A DNA stretch of 35,590 nt. It comes from Candidatus Daviesbacteria bacterium. GTDB lineage: Bacteria; Patescibacteriota; Microgenomatia; Daviesbacterales; UBA10151. Below, in pieces: positions 10,066 to 24,702 of this stretch. Below the pieces are notes generated by a model. The model was not told where the DNA came from. It was given only the letters and a program-made list of their open reading frames with translations, and made no database searches. Both the position numbers and the translations under genes were made by a program. Positions within the stretch are counted from its first letter, which is position 1. The number at the start of each line of letters is the position of its first letter. The DNA lies in NCBI GenBank assembly GCA_021731695.1, contig JAKFWZ010000014.1:1-35590 (forward strand), in the 5' to 3' direction.

Positions 10066-10480
10066 ATAATTTCTTCTTTGCAACTTTGACCGCAAAATTC
10101 TTTCTCTGTACTTTTGACCGCAAAAGTACCAAAACTCTCTTGCGATGAACGGTCTGGCCTAAAACCTTCGTTCGTGTAATCGGGGGATGCCCCCTCCTTG
10201 TTCGCTTCGCTCAAAGGCATCTCCCCCTGATACCCTCGCTCAGGTTTTATGGCAGCTGCGTTCAATGCAAGATTTTTCCTGAAAATGCGAGCTTGAAACA
10301 AAGCGCGTAAAGAATTTTTGAGTGAGTTATCAGGGGATTTCGGTTTTTTGTGATTAGCAAAAAAGCCGAAGGGGCAGCCTCCCCGATTAACGAACGAGAA
10401 AATTTAGCGCGACTTTCCGCGAGCAGAGTTTGCGCAACTTTGCGGTCAAAGTTGCAAAGAATAGTGGCAAAAGAAATTAT
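10066..10480. repeat. Long imperfect inverted-repeat element (~415 bp)
   Basis: 23-nt perfect terminal inverted match ttctttgcaactttgaccgcaaa (10074-10096) / tttgcggtcaaagttgcaaagaa (10439-10461), plus nested inverted matches such as cgttcg..taatcgggg and atcnccctgata. Confidence 0.75.
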
Positions 10481-10517: not shown

Positions 10518-11414
10518 CTAAACTGAAGCCAGCTCAACTTTAACACCAATTCCCATTGAAGGTGAAATAACTGCTTTTTTGATTCTGGTTTTTCCAATTG
10601 CATTAAAAAGAATTTTTGTGTTTTGAACTACCTCATCTGTCGGCTGAGAAACTTTTCCAAGTGTTAAATGAATAACCTGAGAATCTTTTTGAGTTTTATA
10701 TTCAACTTTTCCAGACTGAATTTCACTAACAGCTTTTTTAAGATCAGTTGTAATTGTCCCGTTTTTAGGAGAAGGCATTAAACCTCTTGGACCAAGAACC
10801 TTTGCAGCTCTTGCGAGTTTCGGCATCCATTCAGCGCTCGTAACAATTACATCAAACCCGGTTATGCCTCTTATGATTTCGTTTAACTTTGCATCATCAC
10901 CTATCTCAGCGCCTAATTCTTCCAGCTCTTTTCTTTGTCCCGCCGAAGCTGAAAGCGAAGGAGGACCGAAAGCTAAAATCTTTAACTTTTTACCGGAAGC
11001 GAAGGGAAGGGAAACTAAACCGCGGATATTTTTAGCGCTTGTGGTCATGTGAATTTCTAATGAACCGTCGAATTTTGAATATGAAGTTTCTTTGGCAAGA
11101 TCAATAGCCTCAGTTATTGGGTACCTTTTGCTCTTCTCGGTTTTTTCTGCGACTGCCTTATATTTAACGCTTCTATATTTAGCTTTGCCTTTTTTCTGGG
11201 AGGCTTTGCTTGCCTTTGTTTTTTTAGCAGGAGCGTCTGAAGCTTTTTCCTCTGTCTTTGGAGCTTCTGTTTGAGTCTCTTCAGCTACTGTTTCAGACTT
11301 CACTTCGACAACCTCAGCTTCTTTTGTGTTTTCCTTAGATACCTTCGACCCCTTAGTTACCTTAGGTGCTTCTTCTATCGAGTCATCCATGATTGTTAAT
11401 TTTTTCTTGCCCAT
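10518..11414 (-). CDS. rplA: 50S ribosomal protein L1 with N-terminal low-complexity extension
   Basis: KSKRYPITEAIDLAKETSYSKFDGSLEIHM... and LGPRGLMPSPKNGTIT; start MGKKKLTIMDD at 11414; ~90-aa K/E/A/T-rich N-terminal extension. Confidence 0.92.
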   Translation of the reverse strand: MGKKKLTIMDDSIEEAPKVTKGSKVSKENTKEAEVVEVKSETVAEETQTEAPKTEEKASDAPAKKTKASKASQKKGKAKYRSVKYKAVAEKTEKSKRYPITEAIDLAKETSYSKFDGSLEIHMTTSAKNIRGLVSLPFASGKKLKILAFGPPSLSASAGQRKELEELGAEIGDDAKLNEIIRGITGFDVIVTSAEWMPKLARAAKVLGPRGLMPSPKNGTITTDLKKAVSEIQSGKVEYKTQKDSQVIHLTLGKVSQPTDEVVQNTKILFNAIGKTRIKKAVISPSMGIGVKVELASV

Positions 11415-12548: not shown

Positions 12549-13634
12549 CTACCTTTTAGTAGTAAAATTCTTAACTGTTGAGGAAAATTCGACGCCTGCA
12601 GAATTTTTAGAGTAAACTTTATAAAAATACTTAGTATTTGCGCTTAAATTATTCAAGTTAGCCTGGTGTAAAAGAACCATTTTTTCATCTAATGTGGTTA
12701 TTGAATTAAGATTTGATTGAGTCTTTCCGAAACTCACTCTTGTCGTTCCCGGGTAATCAGTTTTCCACTTAATTATTGCTGAAGTTTTATTGATAGATGA
12801 AACAGAAATATTGGTGAGTTTAAGCGAACTAACAGTAGGAGTTATTGAGGGAGTGGGAGTAGGAGTTGGTGCGAGACTTGCTGATACGCCAATAGTCCCG
12901 GATAGAATTTCTGCGTCAAGATTATCGATAACTCCATCATTATTAAGATCAGACCTTTGAACATACGCAACCTTAAACCCTAAATATTTCTTTAGTTCTT
13001 CCAGATCGCTAAAATCGACTTTTGAATCACTGTTAATGTCGCCTGTCAGAGACGGACTACCGCCACAACTTCCGCTGCCGATTTGAAATTCGCCATTTAC
13101 AACTGAAGCCAACCTATCCTGAAGAGTGTCCTTCTCAACAACGTTAGTATCGTTTGTTTTCGGGAGGTTATTAGGATCAAAATCAAAGGTAATGGGTGTA
13201 GCGCCGATTTGAGCATCTGATCTAACCTTAAAATTAACAGTCGCAAATTTTCCTGCTCCATTAAAGGGTGAGCTGATAGAAGCTAATCCTGATATTCGAA
13301 TCTTTCCATTAACGTTGTCAAATAGCGCTGTGGGGTAGTTTCCATAAATGCTTCCGTTTTGAACCAAAATAGCCTCAAGAACTGCTGGGTTAAATAATAA
13401 AACTACATCAGTACCATATGTATCAAACCCGCCTGTGTCCAAATTTATGTCAATTGAAACATCACAGCTTTGTTTAACGTTGTTACTTAGGGGAGAAATA
13501 GATAATGTTGCACCTGAAGTTGATGCTTTAGGTAAAAGGTTGGTTCTGGTCTGGACCAAAACGACTGAAATGATAATGCCCACGATCAGTATTATTAATA
13601 AAAAAGGATGAGCAAAACCTTTTTGGTTGAACAT
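12549..13634 (-). CDS. Cohesin-dockerin-FN3 surface protein
   Basis: N-terminal NQKGFAHPFLLIILIVG signal; cohesin-like SISPLSNNVKQSCDVSIDINLDTGGFDTYGTDVVLLFNPAVLEA; dockerin GDINSDSKVDFSDL...DLNNDGVIDNLDAEIL; C-terminal FN3-like domain. Confidence 0.82.
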   Translation of the reverse strand: MFNQKGFAHPFLLIILIVGIIISVVLVQTRTNLLPKASTSGATLSISPLSNNVKQSCDVSIDINLDTGGFDTYGTDVVLLFNPAVLEAILVQNGSIYGNYPTALFDNVNGKIRISGLASISSPFNGAGKFATVNFKVRSDAQIGATPITFDFDPNNLPKTNDTNVVEKDTLQDRLASVVNGEFQIGSGSCGGSPSLTGDINSDSKVDFSDLEELKKYLGFKVAYVQRSDLNNDGVIDNLDAEILSGTIGVSASLAPTPTPTPSITPTVSSLKLTNISVSSINKTSAIIKWKTDYPGTTRVSFGKTQSNLNSITTLDEKMVLLHQANLNNLSANTKYFYKVYSKNSAGVEFSSTVKNFTTKR

Positions 13635-13681
13635 TAACTAACTGTATAAAAGATAGGATTATTCTGTCAAGACGAAATTAA

Positions 13682-13740
13682 TTAACTTACTTTAACACCC
13701 ATAATCTGTACAATAATTTCAGCGAGGGGTGGAGTTTGCT
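13682..13740 (-). pseudogene. Possible decayed fragment of the rplK 3' end
   Basis: Reads PPLAEIIVQIMGVKVS*; compare L11 PPIAEMI...SMGVKVSA*; 18-nt identity cttactttaacacccata with the rplK terminus. Confidence 0.45.
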
Positions 13741-13781
13741 GAGCCTTATTCGTTTTTGGTGGAGCAGAAGTTGAAACAGGA

Positions 13782-16454
13782 TTACATTGGATAAACATAG
13801 AAGACGTTTTGTTTGTCCACAGTCCAACCTTTTGAAATGAGGTCGTTAATCTGGGTCGGGGTGATGGCAAACTGATAGAAGGTTTTACTATAGACAGAAG
13901 ACACAAACTTTAATCTGGTAACAGGTACTGTACCAGCCTTTTGGGTAAGAAAAACAAAAAAATCAGAATCAGCAGATTCTGTAAAGCCTTTATCCTTAAA
14001 ACTTTTAATATCCTCCTGTGAAGCTGCCCAAGTGTGGATTTGGGCACTGTTTTGATTATCAGTCAGCACCATCCGGCTTGCCATAAACGAGTCCGGTGCT
14101 CCCTTTATGGGGCTTTTAAAAACAGCACCTTTAAAACTCCAGCCCCGGGTTAGAAGATAATCCAGCTCTTGAGCTTTAGAAGTGTAGAAATTAGCATAAT
14201 AAGGAGGATTAGATTTGATTAGATTATCTACATGAGTTACCGTTGCTGTTTGACGATCCGGAGGGAATATATAGAACACATTATTTTTATCAACCGTCCA
14301 GCCCTGGGAGGATAAAACATCAGTTTCCACAACGCTGAGAGAGAAAGTATAGAAAGTCTGATTGTAGCCAGAAGAGGTAAATTTTAATCTGGTTACAGGA
14401 ACTGAACCAGGCACCTGGCTAAGATAGGCAAAGAAATCAGAATCCGGGTACTCAGTAAAGCCCTGGGATTTTAGAGCGGATATATCCTGGGGGTCTGCAG
14501 CCCAGGTTGTGATCTGGCTTTGATTTGCGCCATCATTTTTAATCATTCTGGAAGCCATAGAAACGCCGGAGCTCCCAGCTGCGGGAGCTTTGAAGACTAT
14601 TCCGCTATCTGTCCAGCCTCTGGCCGTTAGATAATCAATTTCATTTTGTTTTCCGGTAAAGAAAAAGACAGGGTACGGGGGAGTTTTAGGATTTGACGGG
14701 ACTAGCTTTTTAATGCTTACCGTTTGCACATTAATCGAAGGCGTTGATGTAGGAGCCGGAGTGGGATTCACGCAAAGTTTTGTGGTTAAACTTAGATTTC
14801 CAGATGCTATCTGATTATTTCCTGATTTAACTTCAACACGGTATCTATAAAGAGATTCTGGACTTAGATTGTCATCGCCAATATTACGGACATTTCGGGA
14901 GCCTAAGGATTGTTCGGTTCCAGCCGACACTTTGGTTTTAAAGACTTCGTAATTGAAGTTTGGGAAATTTCCGTAGTCATCCCATTCAAGCTCGATATAA
15001 GGAATATTATTACGGCAGCTATTACGGGCAGTAATCATACCAGCTCCATTGAAAGGGATGCTTTTATCAAACTGAACAAGCCAGTTATTTAAACTGTTTC
15101 CGTAAAGAGAGGGGGTATTATCGCTGTCACGGATGTTGCCCCGAGCGGAAGCGGGCCCTAAAGCGAGCAAAGCCGGGGTTTCCGTTTGCAGTCCAAAAGC
15201 CCCGGGGATGGAATTATTAATTCCAGTGTGAGCATACCGGAGACGAGGATTATCGGCGGCATTAGGAGCTTTGTCGAGGGTTATTTTTATGGTATCAGGA
15301 CCGGTGATTTCAACATATGTAATATTAGCTGGTGAAGCACTATTATCAAAATACTCAAATCCATATTTAGTGTCCGACTTATCGATGTTCGGGTATCTTT
15401 TAGGTCGTTCAGCTACTTTTACTGTGTCAATAACAATCGGAGCAACCGGCACGTTTAGCTTAATATCAATTATTTTGCCGTTGAAACTGATTTTTTGAGG
15501 GCTGAGAGGTTTCCAATCGGTTTTATCAGCGATGACTTTTTTAATGACTTTGCCATAGTATTCACCAAGCTGACGGTAAGAAGTGTTTTTAAGGTGAGCA
15601 GAAACCGGACCCCGGGAATTAATATATTCAAGAAAATATTTGGGTCCAACTAAATAAACTTTGCCCGTATTATTTTCTGCGGAATTAAGCTGAGCTTCAG
15701 GAATGGATGATGTTTTTTTGTCATAAGCTGTATGAGAGCTGGTTTGCGAGTGAAATAATGGTACCTGTTCAAACTGACCGGTTAAGGCTTTGGCATCGCT
15801 TTCATAGTCTCTTTGCCATTCAGCGATGCTGGCAGTGTACTGGTCTCCGGGAGTGCCGCTGATAGTATCAGTTTCTCCATGAATAATGGTTACAGCGGGA
15901 ACGCGATAAGGTCTGTTCATACCCTGGGCCGCAGATTTGGCCGCCTGTATCTGGGCCATACCTTCCTGATAAGGAGGAGTGCCTTTTTTTAGACCGATAT
16001 AGGGATACCCCTGGCCTCCATGCATGCTAACTACAAAGTCTTCGTAAGCTGGGGTAGTTGAGAGATTAGAAATTGTGTTTGCCATAGCGCTGCTAATACT
16101 TTCAACGCCTTTTCCTCCAACTTCCGGATTACAGGCAATCTGAAAATCCTCCACCAGCGATCTAAAAGAAGTTAGAGTTTTGAGTGTATTATCAGTGATT
16201 GATAAATTATTAAATGGTTGGGTTGTTGTGAGTGAGGGGCAGCCGTCTGCACCGACAGATAAGCTTTGACCGTTGGAAATTATATGGTTGATATAGGGAA
16301 TTGAATCAGAGGCAAACAAGGAATTTTTTCTGTAAAGAATTGAATAAAGATTATCTTTAAATGGAGCGTAACCTGCAGTAACTGTAAAAACAATAACTCC
16401 TAATCCAGCAATCAAAAGCAGCAGAGGGGCAAGACCTCTTTGGTTAAATCTCAT
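13782..16454 (-). CDS. Secreted multidomain protein: SASA/SGNH-like esterase, FN3-like, two DUF5648-like repeats
   Basis: N-terminal NQRGLAPLLLLIAG signal; ISNGQSLSVG and VTIIHGETD (SASA-like); two C-terminal copies of FxTxKxxExDYLxxRGWxxxGxVFK...VPVTRLKF. Confidence 0.7.
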   Translation of the reverse strand: MRFNQRGLAPLLLLIAGLGVIVFTVTAGYAPFKDNLYSILYRKNSLFASDSIPYINHIISNGQSLSVGADGCPSLTTTQPFNNLSITDNTLKTLTSFRSLVEDFQIACNPEVGGKGVESISSAMANTISNLSTTPAYEDFVVSMHGGQGYPYIGLKKGTPPYQEGMAQIQAAKSAAQGMNRPYRVPAVTIIHGETDTISGTPGDQYTASIAEWQRDYESDAKALTGQFEQVPLFHSQTSSHTAYDKKTSSIPEAQLNSAENNTGKVYLVGPKYFLEYINSRGPVSAHLKNTSYRQLGEYYGKVIKKVIADKTDWKPLSPQKISFNGKIIDIKLNVPVAPIVIDTVKVAERPKRYPNIDKSDTKYGFEYFDNSASPANITYVEITGPDTIKITLDKAPNAADNPRLRYAHTGINNSIPGAFGLQTETPALLALGPASARGNIRDSDNTPSLYGNSLNNWLVQFDKSIPFNGAGMITARNSCRNNIPYIELEWDDYGNFPNFNYEVFKTKVSAGTEQSLGSRNVRNIGDDNLSPESLYRYRVEVKSGNNQIASGNLSLTTKLCVNPTPAPTSTPSINVQTVSIKKLVPSNPKTPPYPVFFFTGKQNEIDYLTARGWTDSGIVFKAPAAGSSGVSMASRMIKNDGANQSQITTWAADPQDISALKSQGFTEYPDSDFFAYLSQVPGSVPVTRLKFTSSGYNQTFYTFSLSVVETDVLSSQGWTVDKNNVFYIFPPDRQTATVTHVDNLIKSNPPYYANFYTSKAQELDYLLTRGWSFKGAVFKSPIKGAPDSFMASRMVLTDNQNSAQIHTWAASQEDIKSFKDKGFTESADSDFFVFLTQKAGTVPVTRLKFVSSVYSKTFYQFAITPTQINDLISKGWTVDKQNVFYVYPM
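13785..14715 (-). repeat. Tandem protein-domain repeat (two DUF5648-like modules)
   Basis: Two ~150-aa homologous units: FFFTGKQNEIDYLTARGWTDSGIVFKAP.. and NFYTSKAQELDYLLTRGWSFKGAVFKSP... Confidence 0.75.
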
Positions 16455-16548
16455 CTCTTATTGTCTTATGATGGCAATTTCAGTAAAGGCTGTCAATAGA
16501 ATTACGGTCGGATTTTAACTCCCTGTTGAGGTTTTCGGGACTGTTTTA

Positions 16549-16665
16549 GAAGAAAAAAGATTGAAGACCTTAAGCGCTTACTTTAACACCCATACTGCGG
16601 GCCACACCCTCAACGATATGAACGGCCTGAGAAACTTCTTTTGTATTTAAATCTTCAAGCTTATT
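16549..16665 (-). repeat. 117-bp duplicate of the rplK 3' end (copy outside the gene)
   Basis: Identical base for base to 16704-16820; offset 155 bp. Confidence 0.95.
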
Positions 16666-16724
16666 TTCGAGAATATATTTCGTAAGAAAGAATTTGTTTA
16701 TTCGAAGAAAAAAGATTGAAGACC

Positions 16725-17150
16725 TTAAGCGCTTACTTTAACACCCATACTGCGGGCCACACCCTCAACGATATGAACGGCCTGAGAAACTTCTTTTGTA
16801 TTTAAATCTTCAAGCTTATTCTTAGCAATTTCCTCAGCCTGAGACATAGTTAATGTTCCTGCTGTTTCGTGTCCCGCTTTGCCTGAACCTTTTTCAATTT
16901 TTAAGGCTTTTTTAATCATTTCAGCAATAGGAGGCTGTTTTGTAATAAAAGTAAAAGTACGGTCTTCGTAAACTGTAATGACAACAGGCAAAATATTCCC
17001 GGTTTTATCCTTTGTTTTCTCATTAAAAGCTTTAACAAAATCCATGATAGGAAGTCCGTGCTGACCTAAAGCCGGACCAACAGGAGGAGCTGCAGTAGCT
17101 GCGCCTGCAGGAATTGTTAATTTTAAAAATGTTTTTATCTTTTTCGCCAT
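16725..17150 (-). CDS. rplK: 50S ribosomal protein L11
   Basis: MAKKIKTFLKLTIPAGAATAAPPVGPALGQHGLPIMDFVKAFNEKTKD; ends GVARSMGVKVSA. Start placed at 17150, not the longer ORF start. Confidence 0.95.
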   Translation of the reverse strand: MAKKIKTFLKLTIPAGAATAAPPVGPALGQHGLPIMDFVKAFNEKTKDKTGNILPVVITVYEDRTFTFITKQPPIAEMIKKALKIEKGSGKAGHETAGTLTMSQAEEIAKNKLEDLNTKEVSQAVHIVEGVARSMGVKVSA

Positions 17151-17158
17151 AGATCTTT

Positions 17159-17591
17159 GATTACCACGGATTAAAAACTGATTACCGCGGATTCTCGCCC
17201 CATATCTTTCTTCTGATTTCCAGCTTCCTGGAACCAAAATTCACTAACAGTCCCAAATTATACCTAGTTCCTCTCAAATAGTAAACTAGCTGAACTTCTG
17301 ATTCTCTTGTGAGAAAAGGTAAAGCTTTAATTTCTATTAAAACTTTCTCTTCAATCACAAAATCCGGTTTATAAATGCCAATCTTTTTGTCCTGATAATA
17401 AACAGGAAGGGAAGCTTCGCCCTTAAATCCGATTTGTCTTTTCTTAAATTCGACTTCTAAAGCTCGATGATAAATTAATTCTTTATGGCCAAAACCTAAA
17501 GTATTATAAACCTCAAATACTGCACCACGAATTTTATAAGTTAGGTCGGAATAAAGCAGCTTATCCGTGTTCATCCGTTATTAATCCGTGG
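17159..17591. mobile_element. Putative GxxExxY-carrying insertion unit with terminal inverted repeats
   Basis: ccacggattaa (17164-17174) and ttaatccgtgg (17581-17591) are inverted copies flanking the GxxExxY ORF; a second gattaccgcggatt lies at 17180-17193. Confidence 0.5.
17182..17574 (-). CDS. GxxExxY protein (PD-(D/E)XK nuclease-like family)
   Basis: IRGAVFEVYNTLGFGHKELIYHRALEVEFKKRQI...KPDFVIEEKVLIEIKAL...LVNFGSRKLEIRR: GxxExxY family signatures. Confidence 0.85.
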   Translation of the reverse strand: MNTDKLLYSDLTYKIRGAVFEVYNTLGFGHKELIYHRALEVEFKKRQIGFKGEASLPVYYQDKKIGIYKPDFVIEEKVLIEIKALPFLTRESEVQLVYYLRGTRYNLGLLVNFGSRKLEIRRKIWGENPR

Positions 17592-21816: not shown

Positions 21817-24702
21817 CTATTCACTTGAATTACTGCCATTATCACCTCCGCTATCGCTCCCGCCAAAGTCGCCTCCGCTAGAGTCTCCACCCGAACCGCG
21901 GTCATCGCTGCCACTGGATTCGGTAGATTCTGAAGAAGCTGCTTCGGAGGCCTCCGTTGAAGCTGAAACTTCAGACGACACATTTGGCTCTGACACGTCT
22001 CCTGTGAACGAATCCATAGTTTGATACCCGCCTTGTTCAGGTGATATATCTCCACTATAGGTGTTATGAACAAGAGCCCCTTCGGCATAAAAATTATTAT
22101 TTGGGGAAACCCCCATTAAGTTATAAACAGTTACGTTTTCCTTTACTTTTTTAACTGAACTGACAGAGGTTAATTTGTTACCTTCATTAATTAACAGATC
22201 ACCTAAATTTAGCTCGTCTGCCCTTTTTAGGATTAATTTTCCGCCCGATTTTGTATAAAATCGGTGATTAACAGTGGCTTTTATTCTTCCGTTTATTATT
22301 AAGTAATCATTTGCCGGATTTACATCAAGCTCTTTAAAATCTGAAACTTCTTTTTTGCCGGTTTTTTCGTTATAGCTATAAACTTTCATGCCTGGTTTCA
22401 ACTGCTCGATTGGAATTTGACGGGAAGGAGTACTGATTAGTGTTCCTGCTAAAAAGCATACGAGACTGCTGGTATCAGAAGTTTCTGTATTATCATCACC
22501 AAAAACGTTTTCTATAGTTTGACTAGACTCAGATTGCAATGCATCCCGAAGATCGCCGGTGATTTCATTACCATTCGCATCAGTGGCTGATGTGATAACT
22601 CCATTGGTATCACTTTTACCACTGACTCCGTCCCTGTCTCCGCCCGAAAAAGACCAACTTGTTTCCCCAGTAGCAACATTAGAAGTTTGACTGAAAGTTC
22701 CGCCTCCCACAACATCAGTAGTGGTCGTAAAACTATCTCCACCGTTCCAATGGGTAGAAGAACGCTGTCCCGAATAATCAGCAGGGTTATTGGCAACATC
22801 TGCACCTATTCCGGCCGACCAGCCACCTGGACCGGATGTGGAGCCTGAAGGTCCTTCTGGAGGAGGACCTACTGCTTGATCTCCAGTCCCAGTTCCTGTC
22901 CCTGTTCCAGTCCCTGTCCCTGTCCCAGTCCCAGTCCCAGTTCCTGGTCCTTGTGGGTTATCTGCAGGTACACTTCTTGATAAATCTTCTAAAGAGCTGA
23001 ATTGGGAACGTTGAGCGTCGCCTAGGGCAGCCGCAGCTTGGGCTGCTGACATAGCTTGCGATGGCGACATATTACTTACGTCTGGAATATTTGCTGGGTT
23101 TGAAAAAGTCATCTGTGATGCTCCTCGGGACTCAGAGATCGCTCCTGCTGAACCCGGTCCGAATACTGATACTGTCATATTCTGCCGCCCGTCAGTCCCA
23201 GTAAAACTTGAAACCTGAACTGCAATACCGTCTTTAGTCTGGCTTATTGATTTTTCTTCTTCCTGAGCCTTTGCTTCTTTTATGATCCCTAAAACCTGAG
23301 GGGGGACTAGTGCTATTGAATAAACCTGATCAGCTTTGCCTACAGGTGTAGCAACGGATTTTACATTCGAGTTAAAAGAATCTCCGAAACTAACTGCAGG
23401 GGATTCAGATCTCGCAGCGGTCGAGTAATAATTCCATTTATTGATAATATCAGAGGGGCTTGGGGTATTTGAACCGATGGCCGAGATTGGGTTATCAACT
23501 GTTTTTTTGGACTCTTTATTGTTAACAACACTTAAAAGCTCCCACTTGCCTCCGGATGCTGGTATTGCAGAGTAATAGTTTTTCTTTGAATCAGTTTGAT
23601 TTATGATCATGAGATTATTATTGATAAAGTAATAAGTTGTTTGTCCTCCTAATTTATTAGGCATTGATAAATTAACCAGTCCTGCAGCGTTTATTGTTTG
23701 AGTGACAGAACCTGAACGCGCATCAATAGATGTATACAAGCCATTTCCCAAAAGCTTTTTTTGACTTAATATTTTTCCGTTTAAATCAGTTTCATTTAAA
23801 ATCCCGCTGCCATTGGGCTGAATGTTTAATGTTAAAAGAGTTTTATTGTCCCTTCCCGGGAGCGTAACTGATAGAGGAGGATCGTTTCTGTCATAGCTTT
23901 CCTGACTCGGCCATGATTTTAGTGCTATTAAAGACCCGTCAGGATTTTTAAACGATTGAAAGATTGCGCCGGTTGCAGCTTTACTGACCTGAATTGGGAT
24001 TCCATCCTGCTCCGTTGAAATAATAGTTGCGCCTGAATCAAGGTAAGAGATGCCCGCCAGTAAAACCCCGTTGTTGCTAAATAATTGGGAACTCGTGATG
24101 CCCGCGTCTTTATTAAAATTGACTTGCTGTGAATTCCCATTAGCCAAAGAATTTACAACGAAACTATCGCCTGAACTTCCGATAAAGGAATCTGAGGAAT
24201 TTACCTGCGGAGCATTGGAGTTATTTTCCTGAGCAAAAACAGTAAAGAGTGAAGAGGGAAGAGTGAAGAGGGAGAAAACTTTGGATAAAAACTGTCTGAT
24301 GCCGGATGATTTTTGAGGGAAATATGTATTTCTCCAAATTCCATAATCGACTAAATTAATGTAGCCATCAGAATTAAAGTCAGATCGCTTAGGACTGTTT
24401 TGAGAATTATATTCAATTTGCCAAACCGATAAATCAAATTCATTAACAAGTCCGTCGCAGTTGGCATCACCTTTTGGTTTTTGATTGCAATTTGATGATC
24501 CAGCCGGTAAAACCCCGGCAAAATCAGCCTTATAATTTTTGACAACATTCTTTTTAACAGAATCGGGAATTTCCTGAGCGTGAGTGGGTGTAGGTAATAG
24601 TTGATAGGTTATAGCTGTAAATAGTAAGGCACAAAAAAAATATCTGGTAAAAAGAAGTTTTCTGTAACTTGTAACCAACAAACTATAACCTTGCTTCAGC
24701 AT
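21817..24702 (-). CDS. Secreted dockerin protein with C-terminal Hint (intein/hedgehog-like) autoprocessing domain and Gly/Ser/Glu tail
   Basis: Signal peptide; dockerin GDANCDGLVNEFDLSVWQIEYN...DFNSDGYINLVDYGIWRNTY; Hint CFLAGTLISTPSRQIPIEQLKPGMKVYSYN...IKATVNHRFYT...NNFYAEGALVHNT. Confidence 0.85.
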   Translation of the reverse strand: MLKQGYSLLVTSYRKLLFTRYFFCALLFTAITYQLLPTPTHAQEIPDSVKKNVVKNYKADFAGVLPAGSSNCNQKPKGDANCDGLVNEFDLSVWQIEYNSQNSPKRSDFNSDGYINLVDYGIWRNTYFPQKSSGIRQFLSKVFSLFTLPSSLFTVFAQENNSNAPQVNSSDSFIGSSGDSFVVNSLANGNSQQVNFNKDAGITSSQLFSNNGVLLAGISYLDSGATIISTEQDGIPIQVSKAATGAIFQSFKNPDGSLIALKSWPSQESYDRNDPPLSVTLPGRDNKTLLTLNIQPNGSGILNETDLNGKILSQKKLLGNGLYTSIDARSGSVTQTINAAGLVNLSMPNKLGGQTTYYFINNNLMIINQTDSKKNYYSAIPASGGKWELLSVVNNKESKKTVDNPISAIGSNTPSPSDIINKWNYYSTAARSESPAVSFGDSFNSNVKSVATPVGKADQVYSIALVPPQVLGIIKEAKAQEEEKSISQTKDGIAVQVSSFTGTDGRQNMTVSVFGPGSAGAISESRGASQMTFSNPANIPDVSNMSPSQAMSAAQAAAALGDAQRSQFSSLEDLSRSVPADNPQGPGTGTGTGTGTGTGTGTGTGTGDQAVGPPPEGPSGSTSGPGGWSAGIGADVANNPADYSGQRSSTHWNGGDSFTTTTDVVGGGTFSQTSNVATGETSWSFSGGDRDGVSGKSDTNGVITSATDANGNEITGDLRDALQSESSQTIENVFGDDNTETSDTSSLVCFLAGTLISTPSRQIPIEQLKPGMKVYSYNEKTGKKEVSDFKELDVNPANDYLIINGRIKATVNHRFYTKSGGKLILKRADELNLGDLLINEGNKLTSVSSVKKVKENVTVYNLMGVSPNNNFYAEGALVHNTYSGDISPEQGGYQTMDSFTGDVSEPNVSSEVSASTEASEAASSESTESSGSDDRGSGGDSSGGDFGGSDSGGDNGSNSSE
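22063..22458 (-). other. Hint/BIL-like self-processing domain (Cys1 to His-Asn)
   Basis: ~132 aa from CFLAGTLI to ALVHN followed by Thr; block-B-like TVNH present. Confidence 0.75.
22882..22945 (-). repeat. Hexanucleotide minisatellite encoding a (Gly-Thr)n linker
   Basis: Tandem cc(a/t)gt(c/t) units encoding GTGTGTGTGTGTGTGTGTG. Confidence 0.9.

Follow-up and report, generated by a model that had tools for sequence, protein, structure and literature searches.

In a 35,590-nt stretch of a Candidatus Daviesbacteria draft genome (the window), an 18-nt sequence on the far side of a gene for an 890-amino-acid surface protein is most likely the native 3′ end of the ribosomal protein L11 gene, rplK, displaced by about 3 kb through the insertion of the surface gene. 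The sequence, CTTACTTTAACACCCATA, is found exactly at 13686–13703, oriented like rplK, and, with the bases that come after it, forms ATGGGTGTTAAAGTAAGTTAA, which reads in frame as MGVKVS followed by a stop. It occurs three times in the window (at 13686, 16577 and 16732), and these three copies are also the only ones in the whole 1.45-Mb draft genome. All lie on one strand, and each corresponds to the last codons of rplK. By a first-order expectation, an exact match would arise by chance about 4 × 10−7 times per window, and 0.03 times if up to three mismatches are allowed. The first-pass annotation had reported this match at the far side of the 890-amino-acid gene and had proposed that rplK-derived ends flank the gene on both sides, through insertion at the 3′ end of rplK; our analysis bears out both proposals. 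The features of the region, in window coordinates, are as follows.

10518–11414, minus strand: rplA, which normally adjoins rplK (122-locus survey)
12549–13634, minus strand: gene for a 361-amino-acid anchored surface protein of cohesin/dockerin/Fn3 type (Pfam PF00963, PF00404, PF00041), positioned like the 357-amino-acid gene of genome G040
13635–13685, minus strand: probable native sequence formerly 3′ of rplK, comprising the stop codon and the spacer to the next gene (compared with the G001 flank and the G040 spacer)
13686–13703, minus strand: probable displaced native rplK 3′ end, the last 18 nt before the stop; exact repeat of 16732–16749 and 16577–16594
13704–16576, minus strand: DNA read as inserted between two copies of the rplK end; absent from G001
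13782–16454, minus strand: cargo gene (open reading frame) for an 890-amino-acid anchored surface protein with two DUF5648 matches (Pfam PF18885, E = 5e-17)
16546–16665, minus strand: second copy of a 120-bp repeat of the rplK 3′ end, with its own 18-mer at 16577–16594 (tblastn fragment, E = 6e-13)
16666–16700, no strand assigned: 35-bp filler of unrelated sequence between the 120-bp copies
16701–16820, minus strand: first copy of the 120-bp repeat (99% identity)
16725–17150, minus strand: working rplK (L11), ending MGVKVSA-stop, 91% identical to the rplK of G001, with its 3′ flank substituted
16732–16749, minus strand: the 18-mer inside the working rplK end (repeat comparison)

The adjacency of rplK and rplA is nearly universal in relatives. 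Among 122 surveyed loci that have both genes, the gap between them is below about 210 bp everywhere except in the window and in G040, which is included twice. G001, a Candidatus Daviesbacteria genus mate and the closest genome compared, has the two genes 144 bp apart, without the insert. Its rplK ends MGVKVS-stop and reads AGTTAGTAAATTTCT after the last V codon. The copy at 13686 continues AGTTAATTAATTTCG, which is identical to this flank at 12 of 15 positions, the best agreement among 56 distinct rplK ends (the next reaches 10 of 15). For the working rplK the continuation is AGCGCTTAAGGTCTT, which has no good counterpart among the relatives (8 of 15 at most, across the 56 distinct ends). G040 carries an anchored dockerin-type gene of 357 amino acids about 46 bp after rplK, and the 13686 copy in the window lies at a similar distance, 51 bp, upstream of the anchored cohesin/dockerin surface gene. 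The spacer at 13635–13685 aligns end to end with the spacer between rplK and the surface gene in G040 (16 of 5,000 shuffles score as well), and the 361-amino-acid surface gene is probably an older neighbour of rplK. Because the 13686 copy carries the native stop context common to G001 and stands at the expected native position, we read it as the displaced original end of rplK and not, as had been suggested, as a decayed third duplicate; 13704–16576 is therefore read as inserted DNA.

The same suggestion had included the residues encoded just upstream of the 18-mer, PPLAEII, as L11-like. This half of the claim is not supported, as the DNA at 13704–13781 scores no better than shuffled controls when aligned to rplK: the best score was equalled in 64 of 1,000 shuffles and lay in a different part of rplK. 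The in-frame protein score was equalled by 1–2% of shuffles for a motif that had been picked beforehand, and a remnant of rplK at this place would require a deletion of about 50 codons. PPLAEII was accordingly rejected as a remnant of rplK.

No full relative of the cargo gene is present in the family, and only 5 of the 373 other genomes of the class have partial ones. Neither rplK nor rplA lies beside any of these partial homologues, and none of 374 class genomes has rplK adjoining a gene like the 890-amino-acid one. The insert was also considered as a transposon and rejected, with no flanking terminal inverted repeats in the repeat listing and no transposase domain. No further copies of the junction regions occur in the genome. 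Because 35 unrelated bp, with no other match in the genome, separate its two copies, the 120-bp repeat of the rplK end (16546–16820) is not a plain tandem duplication. The idea of serial insertions at the rplK 3′ end holds weakly, to the extent of two rearrangements (the insertion of the 890-amino-acid gene and the 120-bp/35-bp repeat), and does not extend beyond them.

Some further features were noted in the window and in G001. Just 3′ of rplA is a strong inverted repeat (10074–10461; 26-nt arms, 96%) built on AACTTTGACCGCAAA, and positions 21817–24702 encode a 961-amino-acid secreted protein, the C-terminal part of which resembles an intein/Hint domain (CFLAGTLISTPS...LVHN). Between nusG and rplK the window has a gene for a PD-(D/E)XK_3-type nuclease (17182–17574), where G001 has three different genes. 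Beside these three inserted genes, and 64 bp upstream of its working rplK start, G001 has another rplK start, which has diverged (L051 5918–6012).

Displaced gene ends recur at several other housekeeping genes of the same genome, which we scanned in stretches totalling 420 kb and then 813 kb. Across the 813 kb, seven scars enclose one or two genes, at rplK, dus, dnaJ, uppS, a spoU-type gene, dprA and a gene for 252 amino acids (g252). The controlled scan returned nine displaced copies on the predicted side against one on the other side and no inverted pairs; the nine include a tandem pilin duplication and the 120-bp/35-bp repeat at rplK, so that seven with cargo remain. The pilin repeat (L201) passed the scan but, as a gene duplicated in tandem, was not counted as an insertion; on contig C3, tRNA-Leu repeats were also rejected as a bracket, being separate tRNA genes. 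The duplications are 18 to 172 bp long and occur at the 5′ ends of genes as well as at 3′ ends. At dus (contig C5; L158 3202–6107), the last part of the gene is repeated beyond an ABC-transporter gene (59 bp, 95%). In G001, dus adjoins a gene for 167 amino acids, giving an empty site; in the genome of the window, the orthologue of this neighbour follows the displaced dus end, and the sequence just upstream of it is common to both genomes. The other five scars are these.

spoU-type methyltransferase, gene start: 172 bp, 88%, around a PIN/MazE-type pair (Pfam)
dprA, gene start: 33 bp, around DUF5615/DUF433 (Pfam); insert absent in G001
g252, gene start: 22 bp, around a HepT/MNT nucleotidyltransferase pair (Pfam); insert absent in G001
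dnaJ, gene end: 20 bp, around a gene for 101 amino acids
uppS, gene end: 56 bp, 84%, around a PIN gene (Pfam)

The cargo of the seven gene-bearing cases thus consists of a surface gene, an ABC transporter, PIN, DUF5615/DUF433 and HepT/MNT modules, and one unknown. Genes of toxin–antitoxin type stand at gene starts or ends at four loci of this genome (L191 15886–17404, L195 9247–11008, L167 16624–18126 and L152 15373–16888), each flanked on both sides by duplicated parts of the adjoining housekeeping gene.

Similar scars are present in other genomes. The scan gave three displaced copies on the predicted side, none on the other side and no inverted pairs in 400 kb of G028; one, none and one, respectively, in 400 kb of G013; five, two and two in 356 kb of related contigs; and none, one and none in 673 kb of other bacteria. 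On a Levyibacteriota contig (L091 8536–11769), the 3′ end of rplA is repeated (82 bp, 85%) beyond a surface-type gene for 714 amino acids, adjoining rplK. In G040 (L231 1290–4435), a spoU-type 3′ end is repeated 3 kb away (80 bp, 84%), with three genes between the copies.

Both rplK ends could derive from the resident gene if a staggered break had left a long overhang that was filled on both sides, with the cargo ligated between. Identical rplK anatomy is expected from such a break, with native sequence upstream of one copy and downstream of the other. If one resident end were duplicated, however, the displaced copy should decay regardless of codons. In 16 pooled cases, the displaced copies instead differ from the gene ends at 25, 15 and 66 sites of codon positions 1, 2 and 3, and the reading frame is intact in nearly all displaced copies. 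This third-position bias suggests two functional alleles and not decay. For the pooled cases, the advantage of two functional alleles over a model in which one copy decays neutrally is about 6 log units, a figure to be taken as an indication, as the codon-model frequencies were assumed and illustrative, not fitted; at 18 bp, the displaced stretch of rplK is too short for a codon-position test of its own. At dus, the displaced copy has non-synonymous changes at two of the three sites that differ; these polarised changes resemble decay of that copy and fit decay after in-place duplication equally well. The genome contains no Ku gene, and a staggered break would require the in-frame stops at rplK and dus to have come from the insert by luck. 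Overall, we consider such a break unlikely.

The remaining explanations are far less probable. Gene 3′ ends, those of ribosomal genes included, are common integration sites: streptococcal integrative and conjugative elements (ICEs) reportedly use the 3′ ends of rplL and rpsI, and 18 bp is a usual length for an attachment core. The 18-mer could be a core of this kind, used by a tyrosine or serine recombinase to integrate a mobile element at the 3′ end of rplK. Against this, neither the insert nor the window has an open reading frame for a recombinase, and the only two tyrosine recombinases of the genome are on contigs C30 and C17, neither near the locus. The related scars range in length from 18 to 172 bp and include cases at gene 5′ ends, and by inspection the repeats at rplK, dnaJ, g252, dprA, dus and spoU have no shared core, all of which makes integration at a specific site highly improbable. 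It is also very unlikely that strain variants of rplK were chained into one contig by the assembler. The genome is a draft of 102 contigs with an estimated contamination of 3.3%, and elsewhere the differences between the two copies are of the kind that strain variants would show. Nevertheless, neither the window nor the parallel loci contain any N, an 18-bp repeat is too short for the overlaps on which assembly usually relies, and parallel cases are found in independently assembled genomes (for example, L091, L231 and the single-contig G028). That the 18-mer is a coincidence, or that it encodes an L11-like C terminus by convergence, is scarcely credible. The end of rplA does have a similar coding stretch (ACTTTAACACCAAT, at 10537), but the chance expectation given above, the fit of orientation, place and native flank, and six parallel cases all speak against it.

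Recombination with foreign DNA that carried an rplK 3′ end together with the 890-amino-acid gene is, in our judgement, a reasonably probable account of the displaced end at rplK. Foreign DNA in which the surface gene followed the donor's own rplK 3′ end would have met the chromosome; on one side, homologous recombination within the conserved rplK would have made the join, and the other end would have joined illegitimately, 18 nt before the resident rplK end. By an alternative route, a re-circularised fragment may have integrated by a single crossover. The outcome would be a whole rplK with the donor-type end MGVKVSA-stop, a gained cargo gene and the old rplK end left as a scar. These two routes are the most likely because the genome has no Ku and the locus no recombinase. 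The divergence of rplK from that of G001 rises towards the 3′ end (third positions, 0.44 to 0.64), but only by about 2 s.d. above background, so that the gradient is no more than suggestive. The repeat, the native flank of the displaced copy, the site without insert in G001 and the recurrence at other housekeeping genes are observed. The sequence of events, the origin of the new end in a donor and the route of recombination are inferred, and we predict a donor in which the cargo adjoins the same gene. In Escherichia coli, DNA with homology at one end was mostly integrated with duplications of 109–950 bp of the homologous gene end, and gene-end duplications by single crossover of re-circularised DNA have been seen experimentally (PMC3240628). 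Saccharibacteria, which are also Patescibacteria, are naturally transformable, and take up and recombine DNA (PMC10633639).

More tentatively, we hypothesize that housekeeping genes of Microgenomates may serve as anchors for the capture of relatives' DNA, with the adjoining donor gene riding along and the old gene end remaining as a directional scar. The acquisition of single genes by small, host-dependent bacteria without obvious mobile elements is poorly understood, and displaced gene ends would mark each acquisition in a simple way, along with its target and direction. If this is true, reading scars across a genome could list the single genes acquired, including toxin–antitoxin pairs and surface proteins. 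The codon pattern between the copies can separate in-place duplication from recombination with DNA of a relative, and the mechanism of long target duplication is therefore testable from sequence alone. There is also a warning for annotation: a short fragment of a ribosomal gene far from that gene may be its original end and not a copy.

The scars share features with several known systems. Like the ICEs and genomic islands that sit at ribosomal gene 3′ ends (rplL and rpsI in streptococci), they have a conserved gene 3′ end as target and a displaced end that forms a direct repeat. Here, in contrast, 5′ ends are used too, and because there is no integrase and no common core, the scars are not those of a site-specific integrative element, as far as our tests extend. 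In homology-facilitated illegitimate recombination, one homologous arm captures adjoining non-homologous DNA, as is proposed here, but typically with a deletion of about the size of the insert and with 3–10 bp of microhomology; the products of single crossover with re-circularised DNA resemble the scars in duplicating the homologous gene end (PMC3240628). The pattern agrees with that of insertion with long target duplication, which is known from Helicobacter pylori (Nobusato et al. 2000, cited by PMC1643837 and PMC3031569) and in which genes are inserted between direct target duplications of variable length and are recognized by comparing related genomes. The Helicobacter cases are frequently linked to restriction–modification genes, a link described as frequent and not as defining; no such gene is among the cargo of the seven gene-bearing cases, which includes a surface gene, an ABC transporter and toxin–antitoxin pairs, in a Microgenomates host and with duplications from 18–22 bp upwards. 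The insert is absent at the same site in G001 for rplK, dus, dprA and g252, and the direct target duplications span 18 to 172 bp, the rplK case by itself being short for the class at 18 bp. Judged at the level of the genome, where both the defining comparison and the duplication are found, the anatomy of these scars is, on sequence evidence, that of insertion with long target duplication.
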